Shown here piece by piece: positions 6,121-18,675 of a DNA stretch of 64,000 nucleotides. Every line of letters starts with the position of its first letter. Positions within the stretch are counted from its first letter, which is position 1. Origin of the DNA: Leeuwenhoekiella polynyae (GTDB lineage Bacteria; Bacteroidota; Bacteroidia; Flavobacteriales; Flavobacteriaceae); NCBI RefSeq assembly GCF_004104075.1, contig NZ_QOVK01000019.1, positions 1 to 64,000 on the forward strand, read 5' to 3'. Below the pieces are notes generated by a model. The model was not told the DNA's origin, searched no databases, and worked only from the letters and a program-made list of their open reading frames with translations. Both the position numbers and the translations under genes were made by a program.

Positions 6121-7887
6121 ATGAGTTATCCGCTTTTAGAAACGATAGATGATCCGGCTGATTTACGTGAACTTTCTGTTGAACAGTTGAGCGTAATCGC
6201 TGTAGAATTGCGTCGTTTTATCATTGATATTGTGGCAACTAAAGAAGGACATCTGGGTGCCAGTCTGGGAGTTGTTGAGCTTACGCTGGCTTTGCATTAT
6301 GCTTTTAGTACTCCCGATGATAAATTGATCTGGGATGTGGGGCATCAGGCATACGGCCATAAAATCATTACCGGAAGGCGGGATAATTTTGAGACCAACC
6401 GCGAGTTTAACGGTTTGAGTGGTTTCCCCAAAATGCAGGAAAGTGTATACGATGCTTTTGGTACCGGGCACTCGAGTACTTCAATCTCTGCAGCGCTGGG
6501 TATGGCGATTGCTTCAAAAATTCAAGGGAATACAGCACGCCATCACATCGCTGTAATAGGAGACGCTTCTATTGCCAGCGGGATGGCTTTTGAGGCTTTG
6601 AATCACGCGGGGGATAGTGATGCGAATTTGCTGGTGATTCTTAATGATAATGCTATTGGGATCGACCCCAGTGTGGGGGCACTTAAGAATTACCTCACGA
6701 ATGTAAAAACGGGCAGTCAGCGACAAGAGAATATATTTGAGGCTTTGAACTTTAATTATTTTGGTCCTGTAGACGGGCACGATCTGGAGAAGTTGCTTGA
6801 GATCTTCAAGACGCTTAAAAAAATAAAGGGGCCTAAGTTTTTGCATGTAATTACTACAAAAGGAAAAGGGCTTAAGCAAGCCGAAGCTGATCAGGTTGTG
6901 TACCATGCCCCTGGAAAGTTTGATGCCCTAACAGGGGAGTTGAAACCTAAGAATACCCATCCGCAGCCACCCAAGTATCAGGATGTTTTTGGTTTGACGT
7001 TAGTTGAACTGGCAAAAAAGAACAAGCAAATTATTGGGATTACTCCGGCAATGCCAACGGGTAGTTCTTTAAAATATATGATGCAGCAATTTCCAGAGCG
7101 TGCTTTTGATGTGGGGATTGCAGAGCAACACGCAGTGACCTTATCAGCCGGGATAGCCGCCTCAGGAGGTGTTGTGTTTTGCGCAATCTATTCTACGTTT
7201 TTGCAACGCGCTTACGATCAATTGATTCACGATGTGGCTTTGCAAAAGCTTCCGGTTATTTTCTGTGTGGATCGGGCGGGATTAGTAGGTGCCGATGGTG
7301 CAACGCATCATGGCGTCTTTGATCTGGCGTATTTACGCTGTATTCCCAATCTTATAATTTTCGCTCCGCGGAATGAAGCAAGCTTACGGAATATTATGTA
7401 TACGGCGCAATTGGGTCTCGAGTCACCCATTGCAATTCGGTATCCCAGAGGGCGCGGATTGGAATTGGACTGGCAGAATCCTTTTGAGCAACTGGAACTC
7501 GGAAAAGCTGAGCACTTGATTAAAGGCTCTCAACTCGCCATTTTAGCTACCGGTAATTTTACTGAAACAGCCCTGCAACTTGCAGCGGTATTTAAGGGGA
7601 ACGTCTCTGTGTATTATTTTGGTTTTGTAAAGCCGCTAGATTTTGTGATGCTCAAGCGGGTTTTTAAAAAGTATAACACAATCATAACCTTAGAAGACGG
7701 GGTACAATCCGGTGGTTTTGGGAGCGCTATTGCCGAAGAAGCTGCACGTCAAAGCTATACAGGCAAGTTGGAAATCTTCGGAATACCTGATCAGTTTATA
7801 GAACAGGGTACCACGGAAGAATTGCAACAGGCTTTAGGTCTGGATTTTGAAAGTTTAAAAGAAAATATTCAGTCGCTTCTGGATTAG
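6121..7887 (+). CDS. dxs: 1-deoxy-D-xylulose-5-phosphate synthase
   Basis: The 588-residue thiamine-diphosphate enzyme joins pyruvate and glyceraldehyde 3-phosphate in the first step of the MEP isoprenoid pathway. The ThDP site begins with GDASIASG (residues 147-154). The catalytic glutamate is E335 in GIAEQHAVT, and the early histidine region DVGHQAYGHK is intact. It is a little shorter than the roughly 620 residues of E. coli Dxs. The start at 6121 is supported by family-like N-terminal residues and the adjacent promoter. A polyprenyl synthetase, a later user of this pathway, is encoded at 25743. It converges with dgt, with 80 bases between the stop codons. Confidence 0.97.
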   Translation: MSYPLLETIDDPADLRELSVEQLSVIAVELRRFIIDIVATKEGHLGASLGVVELTLALHYAFSTPDDKLIWDVGHQAYGHKIITGRRDNFETNREFNGLSGFPKMQESVYDAFGTGHSSTSISAALGMAIASKIQGNTARHHIAVIGDASIASGMAFEALNHAGDSDANLLVILNDNAIGIDPSVGALKNYLTNVKTGSQRQENIFEALNFNYFGPVDGHDLEKLLEIFKTLKKIKGPKFLHVITTKGKGLKQAEADQVVYHAPGKFDALTGELKPKNTHPQPPKYQDVFGLTLVELAKKNKQIIGITPAMPTGSSLKYMMQQFPERAFDVGIAEQHAVTLSAGIAASGGVVFCAIYSTFLQRAYDQLIHDVALQKLPVIFCVDRAGLVGADGATHHGVFDLAYLRCIPNLIIFAPRNEASLRNIMYTAQLGLESPIAIRYPRGRGLELDWQNPFEQLELGKAEHLIKGSQLAILATGNFTETALQLAAVFKGNVSVYYFGFVKPLDFVMLKRVFKKYNTIITLEDGVQSGGFGSAIAEEAARQSYTGKLEIFGIPDQFIEQGTTEELQQALGLDFESLKENIQSLLD

Positions 7888-7967: not shown

Positions 7968-9302
7968 TTACTTAATGTCCAATCCTTTTATTTTTTTGTA
8001 ATTGCGTAAGGCTTTACCGTCTGTCATTGTTGATACTTCGGCACAAATCTGAATGAGGTTTTCATACAACGTATTTTCAGATTTATTTACCGGAGCCAGA
8101 AGCTGCTGAATGAGTTGGTTGTAATGCGTGTCTGTATTGTCTAGTGCCTTGCAACGTGCTTCAAGAAGTGTGGATAAGATTTCATATCCGGCGATTTCCT
8201 TTTCGATCACTTCGCGGCTGTTGTAGATGCGGTCGATGCTGAGGTTGATGATATCGGTGATTTGTGCCTGGTAACTGCTTTTGTCTATTAAAGACTGATT
8301 GAAGGTGCCGGCGAGAATCTCTTCTTCATACTTCATAAAGGTCTCCACGCTTTCAGTAATCAGGGTGCCTATCGCAAGTGCGCGTAAGTAGCTCACTCGA
8401 TCTGAAGTTTCCTGCAAGGCATTGTATTTGTTACGGTCTATGGTGTTGCCAACGAGTTTTACCATATACTCCAACGCATACTCTTCAGGGATAAGTCCCA
8501 GGTTTATACCGTCTTCAAAATCAATAATGGTGTAGCAAATATCATCTGCCGCTTCAACGAGATAAGCAAGCGGGTGGCGTGACCAACTTAAATCATCGGT
8601 CTCGCTTCTGTTCAACAAGCCCAGTTCTTGAGCAACATCAGCAAAAAGCTCTTTTTCAGACTGAAAGAAGCCGTATTTTTTATCTGCAATATGATCTGTG
8701 GGTTTGTACGGAAGCGACTCTTTTGGATATTTCATAAAAGCACCCAGAGTTGCATACGAAAGTCTCAAGCCACCCTGAGCTCCCGGTTTGCTTTGGGAGA
8801 GTACTTTAAAGCCATTAGCATTACCTTCAAACTTGATCAGGTCCTGATATTCTTTTTCGGTTAAGCGGTCTTGATAACGTTTACCATAACCCGATTTGAA
8901 AAACTCCCCAATCGCCTTCTCTCCCGAATGCCCAAAAGGTGGGTTACCGATATCGTGAGCCAGCGCCGCAGCGGCAACAATAGCTCCAAAATCATTAAAG
9001 CGATAGCCGTAAACCTGTTCCAGATGCGGGTATTTTTCAAGGAGTTGTTTGCCCACCATTCTACCTAGTGAACGTCCCACAACCGAAACTTCCATACTGT
9101 GTGTTAAGCGTGTATGAACAAAATCTGTTTTAGAAAGTGGGATGACTTGCGTTTTATCCTGGAGGCTTCTAAAGGGCGTAGAAAATATAATCCGGTCATA
9201 ATCTACTTCAAATCCAAGACGGGTGTCGTCCTGTTCTATACGCAGTCTTTTTGCGGTGTCTCCCTGTCTCTTTAGCGAGAGCAAATGTTCCCAGTTCATC
9301 AT
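7968..9302 (-). CDS. dgt: Deoxyguanosinetriphosphate triphosphohydrolase-like protein
   Basis: The protein (444 residues from the ATG at 9302) is an HD-domain dNTPase. The metal-binding set is visible: RLTHSMEV (first H), LAHDIGNPPFGHSGE (HD pair and following H) and a later D in VEAADDICY. The family hydrolyses dGTP or other dNTPs to the nucleoside plus triphosphate and affects dNTP pools or phage resistance. I rejected a TTG at 9311 in favour of ATG 9302; the next codon is also ATG (9299) and either could be used. Monocistronic, convergent with dxs. Confidence 0.92.
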   Translation of the reverse strand: MMNWEHLLSLKRQGDTAKRLRIEQDDTRLGFEVDYDRIIFSTPFRSLQDKTQVIPLSKTDFVHTRLTHSMEVSVVGRSLGRMVGKQLLEKYPHLEQVYGYRFNDFGAIVAAAALAHDIGNPPFGHSGEKAIGEFFKSGYGKRYQDRLTEKEYQDLIKFEGNANGFKVLSQSKPGAQGGLRLSYATLGAFMKYPKESLPYKPTDHIADKKYGFFQSEKELFADVAQELGLLNRSETDDLSWSRHPLAYLVEAADDICYTIIDFEDGINLGLIPEEYALEYMVKLVGNTIDRNKYNALQETSDRVSYLRALAIGTLITESVETFMKYEEEILAGTFNQSLIDKSSYQAQITDIINLSIDRIYNSREVIEKEIAGYEILSTLLEARCKALDNTDTHYNQLIQQLLAPVNKSENTLYENLIQICAEVSTMTDGKALRNYKKIKGLDIK

Positions 9303-9376: not shown

Positions 9377-9442
9377 TAACATTAAGGTAACCATGATGTA
9401 ACCCTGGCATTACGAATTCATAACATTGGATTAACCACCCAG
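9377..9442 (+). promoter_or_regulatory. Array of six 11-bp direct repeats, PhoB-box-like operator
   Basis: TAACA/TAACC cores begin at 9377, 9388, 9399, 9421 and 9432, with a degenerate TTACG at 9410, so the period is exactly 11 bp throughout. Full heptamers are TAACATT, TAACCAT, TAACCCT, TTACGAA, TAACATT and TAACCAC. Seven conserved bases plus a four-base spacer is the architecture of PhoB boxes and other OmpR-family sites. A near-consensus -7 element (CATCTTTG, 9456-9463) lies just downstream, so the array would replace the -33 element as an activator site. The assignment to a phosphate regulator is inference. Confidence 0.65.
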
Positions 9443-9485
9443 CAGTTCTTTCGCGACATCTTTGCAGCACAAAATAAAACAAGTA

Positions 9486-12272
9486 ATGAGACAATTTTAT
9501 CTGTTATTAATAGGTATTATATTTTCAACATCAGTCTGGGCGCAAGGGACAGGGAGTGTTGTTGGAGTTTTAAGTGATAAAGAGGTTAACAATGAACCAT
9601 TACCTTTTGCTACTGTTCAAATAAAAAATACAACCAAAGGAACCACCACTGATTTTGATGGATTGTATGAAATTGCCAATGTTGAAGCAGGAACTTATAC
9701 CTTGGTTTTTAGTTTTGTAGGATATGAAACGGTTGAAATTCCAAATGTAGTTGTAGAAGCTGGTAAAGTGACCACCGTTAATACAGGCCTTGGTGCTACC
9801 GCTGCAGCTCTTGATGAGGTGGTAATCACCACAACAGTCTCAAGAGAATCTGAAGTTGCACTATTATTAGAGCAAAAGAAAGCAGTAAGCATTCAACAAA
9901 GTATAGGTGCTGATGAACTGGCTCGAAAAGGGGTAAGTGATGCAGCAGCAGCAATTGCAAAGATCTCTGGAGTTTCTAAACAATCTGGGGGTACAGGTAA
10001 TGTATATGTGCGTGGTTTAGGGGACCGTTATTTAAATACGACCTATAACGGGTTAACGCTTCCTTCAAATGATATTGAAAAGAAGAATATGGATCTTGAT
10101 TTATTTCCTTCTGATATCATACAGAACGTTGCGGTAAGTAAAGCATACTCTACAAAATTCTACGGAGATTTTGCTGCAAGTAATATCGACGTTATTTCAA
10201 AAGACTATAAAGGAAAAGGATTTTTAGATATTCAACTAGGGTCAAGTATCAATAGTAGAGCAATAGGTAAAAACTTTGTTAGAAGTGAAGGTACAGGTTA
10301 TTTTGGTTTCTATAACAGATATGATAATAACCCATTCGCAGTAATTCTTTCGCACCCTGTTGATCCGGTTAATGGGGGTGAGCCTATTAATATTAACGGA
10401 TCTATATCTGGTGGAAAATCTTTTGAAATGGGTGAAGGAGGTAGATTGAGCCTTTTTGCTACAGCTTCTTTTGCAAATGATTATGAATACAGAAGAGGTT
10501 CTGCTGCAGATTTTACAACCGTAGAAAAGCAAGTGTATGATGATGTAGAAGAGTTTGAATATTCTACAACAACAACAGCGATGCTTAATGCTATTTACAG
10601 CTTAAGTTCTGGTCATAAAATTACCTTTAACTCTTTATTCTTGAATAGTTCATCTGATGAGGTAGGAAACTTCGGGATTGATGGTAATGGTAGAAATAGA
10701 GATGCTATTTTAAATACAGACAAAGGCTTTTTTACTAAGAATATTCAGTTTAATCAAGATATGATCTTTGTAAATCAATTGTCTGGCCTACATACTTTTG
10801 ATGATAAATTAGAACTAACCTGGGGTGTAGGTTATAATAAGGTGTTTTCTAATCAACCAGACCGTAAACGTTTTGCTTTAGAAAATTACGATCGTGCTTT
10901 AGATAACGATCCTGACACCAATCCTTCTTTCTACAACAACACAAACTTTGATAATCAACGGTATTTTCAGAGTATTGAAGACGAAGAGCTTAATAGTCGT
11001 TTAAATCTTGAATATACTGTTTCAGATAATTTCAAATTAAATTTTGGTTATAACGGTAGATCTAAAGAGCGTTTCTTTAAAAACATCAGGTATGGTTATG
11101 ATTTAATAGAACCAAACACTCCGGTTACTGATATTAATAATTTAGATAGTGTGTTTAATGTACCTAACCTAGGTAGTGTTTATGACACGTTTGTTTTTAG
11201 ATCAATTGCTCCTGAATTAGGAATTGACAACCGTAATTTTCCAGGTCTTGATGAAAACAAGTATACTGGTAATCTAGATATTCACGCAGGTTATGTTAAT
11301 GCTGAAATTACAACAGGAAAATGGCTATTTGTACCTGGCTTTAGAGTAGAGTCATTCAATCAATCAATTTCTTATGACGTTATTAACCTTCCTCCTGATG
11401 CTTCAGGATATGCTGAAAGTTATGAGAATTTCTATTTACCTAGTTTAAACGTACGGTATGCGCTTAATGATGACTCTAACTTAAGATTCTCTTTTTCAAA
11501 AACAGTCTCTTTCCCAGAATTTAAAGAGGTAGCACCATTTGTTTATGAAGATGTTACGAAGCGTGTGGGTGGTAATCCAGATTTATTAAATGACCCGGCA
11601 GTATCTGATGTTTATAATCTAGACCTTAAGTATGAGTGGTTTTTTGGTAAATCAGAATTGTTATCTATAGCTGGTTTTGCAAAAGAAATTAGAAATCCTG
11701 TAAACCTTGTTATTGCCAATGACGCAACAGGAACCAGACGTTATTTTAGAACTGGTGAGAAAGCAAATGTTTATGGTATAGAAGTAGAAGTTCGTAAGAA
11801 CCTTGTGCAGGATGCTAATGATAATGCTGTTGTTTCTGCTGGTGTAAACGGTACGTATATGCACACTAAGCAAGATCTTAGAAGTTCAAACGGTTTGTTT
11901 TCTTCAACACTAGATCGTGATGATGAGCTTCAAGGAGCATCTCCATTTCTTATTAATGCAGACATTAGCTACAGTCCTACGTCATTTGAAAATTACAGAC
12001 CTGTAGCCAATTTAGTGTACTCTTATTTTGCAGATCGTATCGATGCTTTAGGTTCTGGTCAATTAGGAAACATAGTAGAGAAAGGATACGGCACACTTGA
12101 TTTTGTATGGCGTAATGAAATAGGAGAAAACTGGGAAGTAAATGCTAGCGCAAAAAACTTACTTGATCCAGACATTGAATACGTAAGAGAAGGTACTTCT
12201 TTTGGAGATTATACTACATCAATATACCGCAGAGGAATCAACGCAGGTATCAGTGTGAAATACAAATTTTAA
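9486..12272 (+). CDS. TonB-dependent outer-membrane receptor with carboxypeptidase-like N-domain
   Basis: This 928-residue receptor starts at ATG 9486, which gives a clean signal peptide ending SVWAQ; a TTG 24 bases upstream lies in the promoter region. After the signal comes a CarboxypepD_reg-like domain (about 20-105), with the typical TTDFDGLYEI motif and a TonB box around LDEVVITT. The plug domain (about 125-250) contains YVRGLGDRY, and a 22-strand barrel follows, ending in the aromatic-terminated strand YKF. It transports a bulky ligand across the outer membrane using TonB energy. The next gene is a surface-lipoprotein candidate 38 bases downstream, and the upstream 11-bp repeats suggest a PhoB-type regulator. 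Ligand unknown; phosphate or organophosphate is a guess from the operator. Confidence 0.93.
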   Translation: MRQFYLLLIGIIFSTSVWAQGTGSVVGVLSDKEVNNEPLPFATVQIKNTTKGTTTDFDGLYEIANVEAGTYTLVFSFVGYETVEIPNVVVEAGKVTTVNTGLGATAAALDEVVITTTVSRESEVALLLEQKKAVSIQQSIGADELARKGVSDAAAAIAKISGVSKQSGGTGNVYVRGLGDRYLNTTYNGLTLPSNDIEKKNMDLDLFPSDIIQNVAVSKAYSTKFYGDFAASNIDVISKDYKGKGFLDIQLGSSINSRAIGKNFVRSEGTGYFGFYNRYDNNPFAVILSHPVDPVNGGEPININGSISGGKSFEMGEGGRLSLFATASFANDYEYRRGSAADFTTVEKQVYDDVEEFEYSTTTTAMLNAIYSLSSGHKITFNSLFLNSSSDEVGNFGIDGNGRNRDAILNTDKGFFTKNIQFNQDMIFVNQLSGLHTFDDKLELTWGVGYNKVFSNQPDRKRFALENYDRALDNDPDTNPSFYNNTNFDNQRYFQSIEDEELNSRLNLEYTVSDNFKLNFGYNGRSKERFFKNIRYGYDLIEPNTPVTDINNLDSVFNVPNLGSVYDTFVFRSIAPELGIDNRNFPGLDENKYTGNLDIHAGYVNAEITTGKWLFVPGFRVESFNQSISYDVINLPPDASGYAESYENFYLPSLNVRYALNDDSNLRFSFSKTVSFPEFKEVAPFVYEDVTKRVGGNPDLLNDPAVSDVYNLDLKYEWFFGKSELLSIAGFAKEIRNPVNLVIANDATGTRRYFRTGEKANVYGIEVEVRKNLVQDANDNAVVSAGVNGTYMHTKQDLRSSNGLFSSTLDRDDELQGASPFLINADISYSPTSFENYRPVANLVYSYFADRIDALGSGQLGNIVEKGYGTLDFVWRNEIGENWEVNASAKNLLDPDIEYVREGTSFGDYTTSIYRRGINAGISVKYKF

Positions 12273-12310: not shown

Positions 12311-13519
12311 ATGAAGACAAATTATTTACTTACTGGCTTAACCGCAGCGGCACTTATTTTTGCCTCTTGTGAAGCTGATGATACTGCAGAGATTGTAATT
12401 AACAATACAGACAATAGTGTTACAAACAATAATGGTGGTTCAACCCCTGAAGAGCCTAGTACCGGTGAAGCGATTGATTTAGAGGGTACCAAGACTAGTG
12501 ATTTAACGCTCGATATCAATAATACATATACCTTAACCGGACCTCTGGTAATGGCTCCTAATACAAAATTGACTATTCCTGCCGGTATGACTATAAAAGC
12601 AGCGAGTGGAGCAAACGTTTATATAGCGATCTCACAGGATGCTGTGATTGACGCGCAAGGTACTGCTACACGTCCTATTGTACTTACTTCTGCTTCTACT
12701 TCTCCTGCGGCTGGTGACTGGGGTGGTCTTATCTTATTAGGACGTGCACCTATAAACTCTACTGCTGGTGGTTCTGCAACTTCAACTTCAGAAATTGGGG
12801 GTCTTCCTTACGGGGGTAGCGATGTATCAGATTTCTCAGGAGTTATTCGTTACGTGCGTGTTGAGTACTCTGGAGGAGCAGCTGATGGTCAATCTGAAAA
12901 CAATGGTTTTTCTTTTTACGGTGTAGGTAATGGTACTACGGTAGACCACATCCAAGCATTTGAAGGTAAAGATGACGGGGTTGAGTTTTTTGGTGGTACT
13001 GTTAACGCAAGCTATGTTTCTGTGGTAAATGCTCAGGATGATTCTGTAGACTGGACTGAAGGGTATTCTGGTACCTTGTCAAATGTTTATATCAAGCATG
13101 GTGTGTCGCACGATAAAGCTATTGAAGCTGATGGATTCAATACAGATATAGGAAATAACTCTAACCCACTTTATTTCTCTGCTCCAACGGTTAACAATCT
13201 TTTAATCATTGGTCAAGGTAATACTACAGATACAGAAGCTGTACGTTTAAGAGCAGGTACTCAAGGTGAATTTAACAATGTTATCATTCAAGGGTATGAG
13301 GAAGCTTTTGATTTAGATGGTGATTCTGGAGATAGTCCAACAGGGCAAGGTGTTGTAGACGGATTATTATTTGTAGACACTGTAAACTTTGAAGACATTT
13401 CTGTGAAAATGAAAAATGATACAGGTTTTACTTTTACTGAAAATGATTTCATTACTAATGAAGGTGATGCTACCGGTACTGATTATGATACTTGGAAAGC
13501 AGGATGGACTGTTGAATAA
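12311..13519 (+). CDS. Beta-helix-like surface lipoprotein paired with TonB receptor
   Basis: This 402-residue protein has a lipoprotein signal with lipobox IFASC (Cys about residue 20). A threonine/asparagine-rich linker (about 25-55) follows, then a body rich in short repeated beta-strand and turn motifs such as TLTGPLVMAPNTKL, GDWGGLILLGRAP and IRYVRVEYSGG, typical of right-handed parallel beta-helices. It lies 38 bases after the TonB receptor and ends at a strong terminator, so the two form a bicistronic unit. By position it may be a cell-surface ligand-binding or hydrolytic partner of that receptor. I see no catalytic motif I can name. Confidence 0.8.
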   Translation: MKTNYLLTGLTAAALIFASCEADDTAEIVINNTDNSVTNNNGGSTPEEPSTGEAIDLEGTKTSDLTLDINNTYTLTGPLVMAPNTKLTIPAGMTIKAASGANVYIAISQDAVIDAQGTATRPIVLTSASTSPAAGDWGGLILLGRAPINSTAGGSATSTSEIGGLPYGGSDVSDFSGVIRYVRVEYSGGAADGQSENNGFSFYGVGNGTTVDHIQAFEGKDDGVEFFGGTVNASYVSVVNAQDDSVDWTEGYSGTLSNVYIKHGVSHDKAIEADGFNTDIGNNSNPLYFSAPTVNNLLIIGQGNTTDTEAVRLRAGTQGEFNNVIIQGYEEAFDLDGDSGDSPTGQGVVDGLLFVDTVNFEDISVKMKNDTGFTFTENDFITNEGDATGTDYDTWKAGWTVE

Positions 13520-13543
13520 ATTTATTTGAATTAGCTATAGACG

Positions 13544-13575
13544 AAAGGTCCGGACATTGTTCGGACCTTTTTTAT
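13544..13575 (+). terminator. Rho-independent terminator
   Basis: A perfect 9-bp stem (13544-13552 with 13562-13570), a 9-base loop and a T-run to 13574 close the TonB receptor/lipoprotein unit. Confidence 0.9.
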
Positions 13576-13743: not shown

Positions 13744-14127
13744 GTGAAGCAAGAAACCCTGGCGGAAGAATTAGGTATTAGCCAGCAAAGTGTGTCCCAC
13801 ATCGAAAAGAGTGAAACCTTAGAAAATAAAAAATTAGAAGAGGTAGCGAAAGTCCTTGGTGTTACTTCGGAAACTATTAAAAATTTTTCAGAGGAAAATG
13901 GCATCAATTATTTTAATGATAATAGTGCTTCTCAAGGTAATAGCTTCAATCAAGGTATGTATGCAACATTCAATCCTTTAGACAAACTTGTTGAAGCTTA
14001 CGAAGAAAATAAGAAATTATATGAGCGACTTGTTCAAGCGGAGCGAGATAAGCTGTCTTATTTAGAAGGATTGATTAAAAAGAACTGGATTTCTTTAAAG
14101 TTTAAGAGCCTCTTGGACAGATTTTAG
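13744..14127 (+). CDS. XRE-family HTH regulator with frameshifted N-terminus (probable pseudogene)
   Basis: The open frame from GTG 13744 encodes 127 residues: the last part of an XRE helix-turn-helix (QETLAEELGISQQSVSHIE), a linker, and a C-terminal coiled region ending near KSLLDRF. The first HTH helix is missing from this frame. It is found immediately upstream in another frame (13707-13745 reads IGRKIARIRELRG), so a one-base indel near 13743-13746 has split the gene. The upstream part also lacks an ATG; a GTT stands at 13689 after a TAG. The intact family layout would be about 145 residues. Either the gene is dead or a truncated form is made from the GTG. Confidence 0.65.
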   Translation: MKQETLAEELGISQQSVSHIEKSETLENKKLEEVAKVLGVTSETIKNFSEENGINYFNDNSASQGNSFNQGMYATFNPLDKLVEAYEENKKLYERLVQAERDKLSYLEGLIKKNWISLKFKSLLDRF

Positions 14128-14439
14128 CAATTAGCTCTATTGTTAATAAAATCTTAATTTTATACGTTTTTAAAGTGGTTTTCATACACTCTTCATACAC
14201 TATCCTAGGCTTTGCTATGCCTTTGCTTGGGAGTTGCCCTACTTTAGGGTTGAATTTTGATTGCTGCGAATGATTTCACAGCGAATTCAAACAGAGACTA
14301 CACTGGGCACACTTCTCTACGGTTTCTGTGGTACATTGGGTTTTGATAAGGTGTACTAGTGGAGTTGTGATTTAGCCTGAGTTAGAAACTCCATACTTTA
14401 AAAAGAAGGCTAACTTTTTCCAGGTAAAAGCATAATGAT

Positions 14440-14488
14440 ACCACACTGATACCACAGTGCAACCACACTCCAACCACACTTTACCACA
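14440..14488. repeat. Five direct repeats of ACCACA with 11/11/11/10-bp spacing
   Basis: ACCACA begins at 14440, 14451, 14462, 14473 and 14483, in units of the form ACCACACTnnn. The array lies in an 815-base gene-free stretch (14128-14942) between the broken XRE gene and the aspS fragment. It is too short and regular for CRISPR and could be an operator array, an iteron-like site or a minisatellite. Confidence 0.6.
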
Positions 14489-14600
14489 AAATCTGTGGGT
14501 GAATATAGTTGGAATGTGGACTGACTTTTGGGTTACCTATATGTATTCCTGTCTTATCTATAATGTTTGTATGGAATTATAGGGATTGTTGAATAGCTTA

Positions 14601-14627
14601 GGATTAGGAGGATTAGGAGGATTAGAG
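14601..14627. repeat. Tandem 9-bp repeat, three copies
   Basis: GGATTAGGA occurs twice and GGATTAGAG once, head to tail. It is a simple short tandem repeat in the same gene-free stretch, with no function visible. Confidence 0.6.
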
Positions 14628-14714
14628 GAGTGAAAAATGCCACATCTATTCTGTACAGATTAACTCCAATTTTTGCTTAAACACAACAATTATCCCTAAT
14701 AACTTGACGTAGCA

Positions 14715-14757
14715 TAAAAAAATAGGCTGTCTTAAACTTAAGAAAGCCTCTTTTTTA
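14715..14757. terminator. Terminator-like hairpin, A-tract on left and T-tract on right
   Basis: A 12-bp stem with one mismatch (14724-14749, two-base centre) is preceded by seven A and followed by TTTTTT. It can work in both directions, for example for transcripts from the minus strand at 14943-15257, but no intact gene on either side needs it now. Confidence 0.65.
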
Positions 14758-14762
14758 TTGGC

Positions 14763-14880
14763 ACCGCCAAAGGGTTTACTATTCTAAGGCTTGCCTTGAA
14801 GAAATTGAAAATTCGTTTCCAAGCAATGTTTCATGGGCCTGCCTTTGTCGGCAGACCGGCTTGCCCTGAGGTAGTTTACT
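14763..14880. repeat. Interspersed intergenic repeat, copy A
   Basis: This block begins accgccaaagggttta and ends gtagtttact. It shares both ends, plus central pieces aggcttgc and cttgcc, with the block at 60871-60963, although the middles differ. It also holds an inner palindrome around tgcctttgtcggcagac (14840-14856). It is a degenerate non-coding repeat family, about 46 kb apart in this window. Confidence 0.6.
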
Positions 14881-14942
14881 TTAAATAGTTGAGATCTTAT
14901 ATGTATATAATTCTCTAAGCCTTAAAACACTTTGATGTGCAC

Positions 14943-15224
14943 TTACAAGGTGATTTTTAGATTCAATTCTTTCAATTGCTCCTCATCAATTTTTGCCGGA
15001 GCGTCGATCATCACATCGCGCCCTGCATTGTTTTTAGGGAAGGCGATGAAGTCGCGTATCGTTTCTTGTCCGCCGAGAATAGCAACCAACCTGTCTAATC
15101 CAAAGGCCAAACCTCCGTGTGGCGGAGCGCCGTATTGAAAAGCATCCATCAGGAAGCCAAACTGCGCCTGAGCCTCTTCTTTGGTAAAGCCTAAATAGTC
15201 AAACATTTTAGACTGGGTTTCCTT
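14943..15224 (-). pseudogene. Orphan 3' fragment of aspartyl-tRNA synthetase
   Basis: The last 93-94 codons (from [13 protein letters not shown] to the stop) match the C-terminus of the intact aspS at 16924-18675 almost residue for residue, with about seven substitutions near the end and in GFTKEE. At the nucleotide level about one base in five differs, mostly at third positions. The fragment is therefore an aspS that evolved under selection elsewhere before being cut off, not a recent copy. The open frame extends to 15257 with about 11 unrelated codons. It has arginine motif 3 (GLAFGLDRL) but no other synthetase domain, so it cannot be active. Confidence 0.85.
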
Positions 15225-15503
15225 CCAGGTATTGAAATTAAACAACCGATATTCCATTAACTTTTATCTACTTATTAGAAAACATACAATATTGGTGAAA
15301 ATTAGGAACTATTTGTGAAGTTAAGGAGACTTTATTGTTACAACAAATCTTTGGCTCTGATATTGTTTCTTGGAGGTGAGTCAAAGTAATACTCGCCGGT
15401 TTCAATTCGTCTTTGTTAATTTTGTAGAAATGATTTATTGATGCACAATTAATATTAGGATTTTTTTTTAGTCATATTTTAGTTCTCATTTAAAAATAAA
15501 AAT

Positions 15504-16838
15504 ATGAGAATTTTTACGCTTTTCTTTATTATGTTTTTTTCTATCTATACTTATTCTCAGGATTTAAAATATCATAAACTTTTAGATTTAGGTTCTGATC
15601 TAGAAAACGCGACACACTATTATTGTACAGGTTCTGATCTAGGAACTTTGAGGACTAATCTTAATGGAGTAAAATTAGAAGTGGGTAAAGTATACTTGGC
15701 AGATTTGGGGTACGGCCTCACTTATTATAAAGTTATATTAGCTTGGGATGATAATAATGATTCTGGTGATGAAGTTTTTAGTCCAGGAACAATAACACAA
15801 GTTAATTTATCTTGCTCAAGCCTATCTTGGAAGTATCATAAACTAATACGTTTAGGATCAATAACTTCAGCTAAAAGTAAAATATGCTCAGGTAACATTA
15901 CGGGTTTACAATTTAAGGTAAATATATATATTGAAGAGCCTTTGATTAAGAATAAGGTTTACCGATTGGATATTGGGGATGGTGTGGTTCAATATTATTA
16001 TGTGGATTTACGGAGTTATACAAAAGGGGATCCAGATTATGAAGTTTTTAGTTCTAGCTTTAACAATAGCCCTATTTCTATTTCTTGCGACACCGATGGA
16101 GATGGTGTCCCTGACTCGCAAGATAATTGCCCTAACCAAGCTGGACCAAGTAGTAATAATGGTTGTCCTTTGCCCTCAACTTACGATTTAAAATTTGATA
16201 CAAATAAAACTGAGGTATATGTACCCAATAAAGGCTATATTAAATTGGATAATCTTACTTCAAATGATTATTTCGAAATCGGCAACAGTTCAGGTATTTA
16301 TTTAAGAAATATTACAGTTAAAAATGTTGGAGGGCAAATATCTCCTAACACTTCAATCAATCTTTATTTATCAACTGATGATGAACTTAATCGAGAGTTA
16401 GATCCAAGATTACCTGAAAATGCAATCACTTTATATAATATTCAGCCTGGAGCATCAAGAACCGTTTCAAACATTCAAGATATTCAAGCTGTAGATATAC
16501 CTTCCAATGTTCCTTTGAACAACTATTATTTGTTCTTGAGTATTGATCTAGTATATAATGATGAAAACTTTAGCGATAATACAATTTCAATCAATAATGT
16601 TCAGTTCACTTCATATAGATCACCACGGTTAGAAAAGTCCCTTGTACAAGGTGAGGGATTTGCCGATACAGTTGAGTTTAAGGTCGAGACTATACATATA
16701 TTTGATTTTTCAGGTAATTTGATAGAAGAGAAAAAGCTTTATTCTGAATCAGACAGAAAAAGTTTAATCGAAAATCTTCCAAGTGGTATGTATATTTTTA
16801 AACATGAAGACGGATCCTCAGAGAAGATCGCTAAATAA
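15504..16838 (+). CDS. Type IX-secreted protein with internal duplication and thrombospondin type 3-like repeat
   Basis: This 444-residue protein has a signal peptide (residues 1-19, ending TYSQ). Two related segments of about 90-100 residues follow, both opening with KYHKL (about residues 22 and 112). Next is a calcium-binding thrombospondin type 3-like piece, DTDGDGVPDSQDNCP (about 199-213), then a CARDB-like beta region (about 225-370). The C-terminal sorting domain (about 395-444, with IHIFDFSGNLIEEKKL and LPSGMYIF) is that of type IX secretion, so the product is probably exported to the surface or medium. The gene is notably AT-rich and sits alone between the two aspS 3' ends, suggesting acquisition. 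Function unknown; adhesion or ligand binding is plausible. Confidence 0.85.
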   Translation: MRIFTLFFIMFFSIYTYSQDLKYHKLLDLGSDLENATHYYCTGSDLGTLRTNLNGVKLEVGKVYLADLGYGLTYYKVILAWDDNNDSGDEVFSPGTITQVNLSCSSLSWKYHKLIRLGSITSAKSKICSGNITGLQFKVNIYIEEPLIKNKVYRLDIGDGVVQYYYVDLRSYTKGDPDYEVFSSSFNNSPISISCDTDGDGVPDSQDNCPNQAGPSSNNGCPLPSTYDLKFDTNKTEVYVPNKGYIKLDNLTSNDYFEIGNSSGIYLRNITVKNVGGQISPNTSINLYLSTDDELNRELDPRLPENAITLYNIQPGASRTVSNIQDIQAVDIPSNVPLNNYYLFLSIDLVYNDENFSDNTISINNVQFTSYRSPRLEKSLVQGEGFADTVEFKVETIHIFDFSGNLIEEKKLYSESDRKSLIENLPSGMYIFKHEDGSSEKIAK

Positions 16839-16923: not shown

Positions 16924-18675
16924 TTATATTGTTACCTTCAAATTTAATTCTTCTAATTGAGCTGCATCAATTGTTGCAGGGGCATCGATCATTACATCAC
17001 GGCCGGCATTGTTTTTAGGGAATGCAATAAAGTCGCGTATGGTTTCTTGACCACCCAGAATGGCTACCAGTCTGTCTAAACCAAACGCTAAACCACCGTG
17101 AGGTGGTGCACCGTATTGAAAAGCGTCCATCAAGAAGCCAAACTGTGCTTGTGCTTCTTCTTTAGAAAAGCCGAGGTAGTCAAACATTTTAGACTGGGTT
17201 TCTTTATCGTGAATCCGTATAGACCCACCGCCAATTTCGTTTCCATTTAAAACAAGGTCGTAAGCATTTGCTTTTACGTCACCGGGATTGGTGTTCAGCA
17301 ATTCCATTTGGCCGGGCTTGGGAGAGGTGAAGGGATGGTGCATCGCGTGATAGCGTTCAGTCTCTTCGTCCCATTCTAAGAGTGGAAAATCTACCACCCA
17401 AAGCGGAGCAAACTCATCTGATTTACGTAAACCCAATCTGGTAGCCAGTTCCATTCGTAGCGCGCTCAATTGCGTACGGGTTTTATAGGTTTCACCAGCC
17501 ATGATTAAGATGAGGTCTCCCGGTTTAGATTGTGTAGCTTCTGCGAAATGTTTTAAGTATTCTTCGTCAAAAAACTTATTAACCGATGAACTTAAGCTTC
17601 CATCACTATTGTATTTAACCCAGATTAACCCGGTAGCACCTATTTGTGGTCGTTTGACCCAGTTGATGAGTTCGTCAATTTGCTTACGCGAATAATCGGC
17701 ACAACCTTCAACGTTTATGGCATTGACTAATTCGGCATTGTCAAAGACCCCAAAGCCGAAGTCAGTTCCCCCTTTGGGGGTTAGGGGGCAAAACTCCATC
17801 CCAAAACGAATGTCCGGCTTATCGTTACCGTATTTTGCCATCGCCTCATCATAAGTCATTCTCGGGAAGTTTTCGATCTCAAAACCTACGACCTCTTTTA
17901 AAAGATGCTTGGTTAAGCCTTCAAAAATATTCAGGATATCTTCTTGTTCTACAAAGGCCATCTCACAGTCAATCTGTGTGAATTCCGGCTGGCGGTCTGC
18001 CCGTAGGTCTTCGTCTCTAAAGCATTTTACAATCTGAAAATACTTATCCATACCACCTACCATAAGCAATTGTTTAAAGGTTTGTGGTGACTGCGGAAGG
18101 GCGTAGAATTGCCCTTCATTCATACGGCTGGGCACGACAAAATCGCGCGCACCTTCCGGAGTAGATTTGATCAAATAGGGCGTTTCAACCTCTATAAAGC
18201 CTTGTTCAGATAAGTAATTACGCACGGCGATACTCACTTTGTGTCTAAAGATGAGTTTCTCTTTTACCGGATTGCGACGGATGTCGAGATAGCGGTATTT
18301 CATCCGTAAATCTTCTCCGCCATCAGTTGTATCTTCAATCGTAAATGGGGGTGTTTTTGCTTCGTTTAAAACTTCTAATTTTTCAACCAAAAGTTCAACA
18401 TCGCCCGTAGCCATCTTCGCATTTTTAGACTCACGCTCAATCACTTTACCCGTTACCTGAATCACAAACTCACGACCTAAGGTTTTAGCGAGATCCATCA
18501 CGTCTTTAGGGGTACGCTCCTCGTCAAAAATAAGTTGGGTGATGCCGTAGCGATCGCGTAAATCCAGCCAGATCATAAAGCCTTTATCACGGGATTTTTG
18601 TACCCATCCGGCAAGCGTTACCGTTTCATTTATATGTTCGGCGCGTAAAGCTCCGTTATTGTGCGTTCTGTACAT
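16924..18675 (-). CDS. aspS: Aspartyl-tRNA synthetase
   Basis: The 583-residue class II synthetase charges tRNA-Asp. It has the N-terminal OB anticodon-binding domain (about 1-105, containing [14 protein letters not shown]). The catalytic core holds motif 2 ([18 protein letters not shown]) and motif 3 ([15 protein letters not shown]), and the bacterial GAD-type insertion lies between about 285 and 410. The length agrees with bacterial AspRS. An odd feature is residues 296-305 ([10 protein letters not shown]), encoded by a C/G-rich palindrome that looks like an inserted repeat; the frame remains open. A diverged orphan copy of the 3' end lies at 14943-15224. Whether it is discriminating or also charges tRNA-Asn is not decidable, but asnS is present at 59341, so discriminating is likely. 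Confidence 0.97.
17768..17788. repeat. C/G-rich palindromic repeat inside aspS
   Basis: Five C, TTT, five G, TTA and five G follow in succession, giving a hairpin (17768-17772 with 17776-17780) and a second possible pairing with 17784-17788. It encodes PLTPKGG in frame. The sequence resembles a short intergenic repeat I associate with Bacteroidota genomes; there is no second full copy in this window. Confidence 0.55.

Follow-up and report, generated by a model that had tools for sequence, protein, structure and literature searches.

Pho boxes are described as at least two head-to-tail 11-nt units, each with seven better conserved and four less conserved bases, that adjoin a promoter; the consensus differs between species, and some Pho genes carry no boxes (PMC4415409). 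In Flavobacterium johnsoniae, paired genes for a TonB-dependent outer-membrane receptor (TBDT) and a lipoprotein are reported to rise on Pi depletion, among them Fjoh_0545 and Fjoh_0546, whose transcripts went up by 8.0 and 9.9 (FC column, Table 1); the receptors concerned are described as induced when Pi, but not when Fe or N, is depleted (PMC8115612). The same source gives 31–36% identity of FI–FIII with a Caulobacter lipoprotein. Its main text names no operator for the PUSIV/FII cluster (Fjoh_0541–0546), the words 'promoter' and 'motif' occurring there 0 times. ElpS (cc0170) of Caulobacter crescentus is produced on Pi starvation, and its gene adjoins the TBDT gene cc0171 (PMC2996285). For the PhoP protein of Riemerella anatipestifer, DAP-seq gave 583 peaks and a motif described as ArcA-like, in which TTTAACA is most conserved; an EMSA shift was obtained with a TonB-receptor promoter, and many targets have no phosphate link (PMC9603813). 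In the Riemerella phoPR mutant, pstS was 8-fold higher (PMC5399024). PhoB of Bacteroides fragilis binds the pstC promoter, and the word 'consensus' is absent from that paper's text (PMC3547664). Within the part of the literature covered, no Flavobacteriales Pho-box consensus beyond the Riemerella motif was found.

A comparable gene pair, preceded by a six-unit array, lies in the window, which is the whole 64,000-nucleotide stretch of Leeuwenhoekiella polynyae DNA analysed here. Like the PUSIV/FII cluster, whose lipoprotein is assigned to IPR011050, the pair consists of a TBDT gene and a lipoprotein gene. The PUSIV/FII cluster lies beside phoBR and a glycosyltransferase gene and is strongly Pi-induced (PMC8115612), whereas the operon of the window lies beside a dgt-like gene. 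ElpS/cc0171 likewise places a lipoprotein gene beside a TBDT gene; the T2SS-dependent release of ElpS is a C. crescentus feature that differs from the system of the window (PMC2996285). The array shares with the Escherichia coli Pho box the head-to-tail 11-nt units by a promoter and, within the cores, T..CAT (CTGTCAT against TTAACAT), but differs in its six units and its Bacteroidota-type -7 element. The E. coli core CTGTCAT is not matched by the array, whose core is TAACMTT. The likeness of the Riemerella PhoP site to the array is one of motif description (TTTAACA), of order (Flavobacteriales) and of a TonB-receptor promoter as target; its ArcA-like description and its many targets outside phosphate set it apart.

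Array, promoter and operon

The features of the locus were as follows, in window coordinates.

7968–9302, minus strand: divergent neighbour outside the operon, which we take to be dgt-like
9377–9442, plus strand: operator, predicted PhoB-binding array; TAAC/TTAC core, about three preferred bases and four spacer bases per unit
9377, plus strand: unit 1, TAACATTAAGG
9388, plus strand: unit 2, TAACCATGATG
9399, plus strand: unit 3, TAACCCTGGCA
9410, plus strand: unit 4, TTACGAATTCA; TTAC core, one change from TAAC
9421, plus strand: unit 5, TAACATTGGAT
9432 (9432–9438), plus strand: unit 6, TAACCACCCAG
9457–9464, plus strand: -7-type promoter element CATCTTTG, first base differing from the consensus
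9486–12272, plus strand: TBDT, 928 aa; carboxypeptidase-regulatory-like domain, plug and beta-barrel
12311–13519, plus strand: lipoprotein, 402 aa; probable beta-helix, judged from a modelled, aligned family member (36% identical)
13543–13571, plus strand: hairpin of 13 pairs with a T tail

Direct reading of 9377–9442 on the plus strand revealed six 11-bp direct-repeat units with five TAAC cores and one TTAC core. The 11-bp steps claimed by the original prediction are exact, but its six exact repeats could not be upheld: only the 4-base core recurs, with one change in the unit at 9410, which the prediction itself had put in brackets, and the remaining bases vary between units, so that the stretch is a binding-site array and not an exact repeat. 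The array was absent from the output of Tandem Repeats Finder (score of at least 30). A layout of seven conserved and four spacer bases had also been claimed and was confirmed, as at least two head-to-tail 11-nt units with seven conserved and four variable bases. The six-unit core score of the array was 23 of 24; the next best score in the window on either strand was 16, and 200 dinucleotide-shuffled versions of the window reached 19 at most. With the period set to any other value between 7 and 16, the window maximum was 17 or 18. When the 4.79-Mb genome was searched for four cores with at most one mismatch, the only matches were three overlapping frames of this array. A separate period-11 tandem repeat of TGATACCACAC could be observed at 14436–14488 (4.9 copies), with a sequence unrelated to the operator.

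The consensus of the -7 element is TANNTTTG. The near-consensus -7 site and the -33 placement of the earlier reading were a fair description, since CATCTTTG is one base off and unit six lies approximately at the -33 position; unit six (9432) and the NTTTG of the element start 28 bp apart. The TBDT resembles TIGR01782, yet scores below the cut-off of that model. Its start is most likely the ATG at 9486; the mechanical ORF list starts it at the TTG at 9462. The hairpin at 13543–13571 is likely the terminator of a two-gene operon, although a simple hairpin scan of these 1.8 kb is expected to pick up about one chance site. Further downstream, 13744–16838 includes a 104-aa ORF (14943–15257) that nearly duplicates the C-terminus of aspartyl-tRNA synthetase (16924–18675), and a secreted-protein gene, preceded by an HTH gene, lies between this ORF and the synthetase gene. 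As aspS directly adjoins the lipoprotein gene in one relative (G011, L171), 13744–16838 looks like an insertion that duplicates the aspS 3' end.

Conservation of the array and the motif at phosphate genes

A homolog of the lipoprotein was present in 47/60 related genomes (E <= 1e-5), and the pair of TBDT and lipoprotein genes was kept in all 20 ortholog loci, which represent 20 of the 47 genomes. The array was significant in the window and in 15/20 of these loci (0/300 shuffles each). The remaining five were rescored from the ORF starts with a matrix trained on 16 arrays from one gene family (TBDT). L086 and L087 then gave 0/200 shuffles; L088 gave 0/200 with two units and 9 with four, L091 was marginal (4–6/200), and L090 was negative. 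The aligned units read T-A/T-A-C-A/C-T-T followed by four loose bases, the third unit often being weak. Between genera and between families the spacers change, while the cores, the period and the phase relative to TTTG are kept.

Loci from named genomes were collected by profile search, as the best 80 of 570 confirmed candidates, and do not include F. johnsoniae itself. In this best 80 of 570, the TBDT and lipoprotein genes were adjacent in 73/80 loci. The full upstream region was available for 70 of them, and here the array was reached by at most 2/200 shuffles in 62/70 loci and by none in 48/70; the test failed in eight (L230, L244, L251, L255, L261, L263, L269 and L290), which include Chryseobacterium and Bacteroidales loci. 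The median four-unit score was 18.3 in these 70 of the best 80, against 1.5 for 338 other genes of the same loci. The mean four-unit score in the best 80 of 570 was 17.7 at period 11 and 4.7–7.1 at periods 7–10 and 12–16. Independent evidence comes from the permease and porin sets, since the TBDT training set and the named TBDT set are homologous to each other. Flavobacterium species such as F. gelidilacus, F. limi, F. hibernum and F. pectinovorum had the gene order glycosyltransferase, phoR, phoB, TBDT and lipoprotein, which matches Fjoh_0541 and Fjoh_0543–0546, except that Fjoh_0542 (OprP) was not seen in those loci.

The TBDT-trained matrix revealed a TAACMTT-N4-TAACMTT-like pair before the PHO4-family phosphate permease in 29/30 loci (at most 2/200 shuffles each). 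The exception is L123; its genome, G033, has a second permease copy, and that copy has a strict site. In the L. polynyae genome, the sole zero-mismatch TAACMTT-N4-TAACMTT is the promoter site of the 747-aa PHO4-family permease, and the second-best array among the window and 17 further stretches of this genome, 7 of which had been picked by a loose pattern, precedes this same permease. In the named loci (best 80 of 570), the two-unit score had a median of 4.9 over 338 other genes but reached 15.7 in permeases (n=22) and 12.4 in porins (n=12); the Porin_O_P genes of the module also carry boxes in the 12 named copies. Among 129 L. polynyae genes not selected by motif, the receptor, a member of the training set, ranked first and the phoBR-linked glycosyltransferase second (15.6), followed by a gene at 12.5. 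The 15 named copies of this glycosyltransferase gene had no box (median 3.7; best 80 of 570). Four phoX matches were obtained in 3/13 Flavobacterium genomes; their best pair, at 11.3, is weak, and one of the genes is possibly not first in its operon. Inspection by eye showed no array 5' of the organism's own phoB. The expectation that the motif would lie before other phosphate genes held for the PHO4 permease (29/30) and Porin_O_P; pst and phoX fit it less well.

The phase to the promoter was counted from the last scored unit to the nearest NTTTG on its 3' side (N being any base but G), with genes scoring below 8 removed beforehand and genes having no such TTTG within 60 bp excluded (8 receptors, 0 permeases, 1 named permease, 0 porins and 27 lipoprotein genes). 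On this count, NTTTG lay at 6 mod 11 in 51/60 receptors, 27/29 permeases, 17/19 named-genome permeases, 8/11 porins and 14/16 lipoprotein genes. In permeases, the distance from the last unit to NTTTG was mostly 28 bp, the same as separates unit six of the window from CTTTG. From this distance and phase, the promoter-proximal unit therefore covers the -33 position, and the array has the constant position and phase relative to the promoter that are expected of a Pho box.

Across 60 genomes, the strict pattern (pair, 21–23 bp, TTTG) matched 23 times and its reversed form 6 times. Module genes followed 17/23 (15 permeases, one porin and one short receptor-like gene), and the 6/23 that precede no module gene equal the count of the reversed control. 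Looser motifs showed no genome-wide excess over their reversed patterns (98 vs 95, 222 vs 282 and 278 vs 324); loose pattern counts were for this reason dropped as regulon evidence, and only the top matches are therefore informative. Pair sites with at most one mismatch numbered 12 in the L. polynyae genome: 3 at the permease, 1 in the array of the window and 8 elsewhere. Among these 8, one before a SusC-like gene looks plausible, and one (C1:618582) is part of a good array with no clear target; the remaining ones, such as a site preceding a glutamate-synthase-like gene and one within a coding region, were taken as chance.

Several further sites were observed during the scans, those labelled G000 lying in the L. 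polynyae genome. The region that separates the permease from a divergent MORN-like gene holds a second, distal array (L104, about 6140–6200, G000:C25), which abuts TATATTTG in the sense of the MORN-like gene and might regulate that gene. A TBDT/SusC-like gene after a phosphoglucose-isomerase-like gene (L170:2584, G000:C5) has a TAACATT-N4-TAATATT pair at -71, and a strict site, one of the 6 outside the module, precedes a TBDT-like gene, again after a phosphoglucose-isomerase-like gene, in L312 (G013:C16; names by eye); both genes are candidates for a further Pho-regulon receptor. At L169:8026 and L105 (G000:C24), the genes after a SusC/SusD-type pair resemble, as judged by eye, those of phosphatases, aminotransferases and phosphonatases; with a pair score of 12.9 at -198, this is a possible phosphonate or organic-P locus. 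A four-unit array of score 25.2 at about 6561 of L102 (G000:C1) is intergenic, with no evident phosphate gene.

Gene neighbourhood and lipoprotein family

The L. polynyae genome has its own phoB-phoR pair on another contig (L093), encoding an OmpR-family regulator with an adjacent kinase. This PhoB is 56–84% identical to five operon-flanking PhoB proteins of relatives, the next regulator of the genome being 36% identical, and 10 Trans_reg_C matches were found in the genome in all. The opposite-side neighbour of the operon in the 20 ortholog loci was dgt in 12, phoB-phoR in 5 and another gene in 3 (hand count). PhoB (at least 50% identity) was found within the analysed stretch of 39/80 named loci (best 80 of 570).

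Elsewhere the operon adjoins a PHO4 permease, Porin_O_P or pstC gene. By hand count, the permease lay at most 10 kb from the lipoprotein in 13/36 genomes having both, namely 0/13 in the genus of the window and 13/23 outside it. PstC scored above the cut-off in 6/60 genomes, 4 of which also have the lipoprotein; in 3 of these 4, pstC lies near the lipoprotein gene (within 3 kb in G015 and G019, which gave no permease hit, and about 6 kb away in G037), and in G046 it is located away from it. For L. polynyae itself, no PhoU was detected at E <= 0.001, a family found in 13/14 control genomes. The best PstC match of 67.7 bits was not counted, because it falls below the curated cut-off of 196.45.

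The lipobox cysteine was invariant in 10 lipoprotein sequences. A structure model was built with 10 sequences for the family member L089, which is 36% identical to the protein of the window (pLDDT 86; N-terminal 29 residues uncertain). Judged from its strand pattern and fold matches, the modelled protein is a right-handed beta-helix. Foldseek against the PDB gave no match at E <= 0.001, and a PDB search by sequence gave none up to E 1. Further structural alignment revealed many beta-helix proteins, the best being the alginate epimerase AlgG (Z 24.5, 263 residues, rmsd 2.7); the matches comprise many beta-helix enzymes and tailspikes at 8–17% identity, and on this model they show fold, not function. 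By gene context and the published descriptions, the lipoprotein of the window appears FI/FII/ElpS-like.

Relatives of the lipoprotein occur in 21 plasmid records, of which 8 were examined. A TBDT gene was adjacent in 7/8, the Marinobacter record being the one without, and in 5 of the 6 proteobacterial records examined. The Alteromonas record adds phoR and a phosphate-binding-protein gene, and the Indioceanicola record T2SS genes, a likeness to Caulobacter. In many Flavobacteriaceae (L172 and many of L181–L205), the lipoprotein is of double length, with open frames that span about 640–1020 aa.

Proposed regulation and alternative explanations

The array is very probably a multi-unit Pho box that serves as the predicted PhoB operator of the TBDT and surface-lipoprotein operon. 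The original prediction of a PhoB-type operator before a phosphate-starvation module was supported by the permease pairs (29/30), by the phoBR, Porin_O_P, permease and pstC neighbours and by the Pi induction of Fjoh_0545/0546 (PMC8115612), PhoB binding itself being a prediction. The evidence against this reading includes the absence of an array at the organism's own phoB, the weak phoX boxes, the named glycosyltransferase copies that have no box, the lack of a genome-wide excess of looser motifs, the 6/23 strict matches away from module genes, the 8/70 named loci (best 80 of 570) that fail the shuffle test and the ambiguous Riemerella precedent.

The most serious rival, though an improbable one, is that another OmpR/PhoB-family regulator answers to a different signal through a similar TTAACA-type 11-bp motif, which the phosphate genes share secondarily. 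It draws on the 10 Trans_reg_C matches in the genome, on the ArcA-like TTTAACA motif of Riemerella PhoP with its many non-phosphate targets (PMC9603813) and on the rise of pstS in the Riemerella mutant (PMC5399024), and has to face phoB in 39/80 named operon loci (best 80 of 570), the concentration of strict sites on the phosphate permease (15/23) and F. johnsoniae receptors whose reported induction is confined to Pi depletion and does not extend to that of Fe or N (PMC8115612). That the array instead serves the divergent dgt-like gene is suggested by its position between dgt and the receptor and by the dgt neighbour in 12/20 ortholog loci (hand count). The array stays with the receptor, however, where phoBR (L089, L082 and the named Flavobacterium loci) or other genes (L077, L078) replace dgt, and the median four-unit score in the dgt sense was 6.0 (n=19) against 18.3 (n=70) in the named loci (best 80 of 570), which makes this reading highly improbable. 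Chance, or a functionless decaying tandem repeat, would agree with an exact core in five of the six units and with looser motifs that are not in excess genome-wide; set against a score of 23 versus at most 19 in 200 shuffles, and against cores, period and TTTG phase that are conserved across genera and families around varying spacers, its likelihood is negligible.

If the array is a PhoB operator, low phosphate would lead PhoR to phosphorylate PhoB, as expected from the family. Each PhoB dimer may then occupy two 11-bp units in head-to-tail arrangement, and six units would fit three dimers. With the proximal unit at -33 and, by the geometry observed, sharing its helical phase with the -7 element, PhoB could replace the -33 contact and activate RNA polymerase. 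The receptor and the beta-helix lipoprotein would bind and import a phosphorus-containing ligand, the phosphate of which may enter the cytoplasm via the PHO4-family permease of the same regulon. A wider proposal is speculative and on the whole rather unlikely: TAACMTT-N4 would be a Flavobacteriales-wide Pho box, many members would have a PhoBR regulon without PhoU and without true PstSCAB, the large PHO4-family permease (747 aa) would, besides being a PhoB target, act as the flux sensor to PhoR, and ElpS-like surface uptake modules would respond more steeply or more strongly through long arrays, such as the present six-unit one, than through two-unit sites.

A usable definition of the Flavobacteriales Pho box would allow the prediction of those among the many TonB receptors of the order that serve phosphorus, and not carbon or iron. 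In the lineage of the window, the array would tie the abundant, uncharacterised FI/FII/ElpS-like lipoproteins to phosphate.
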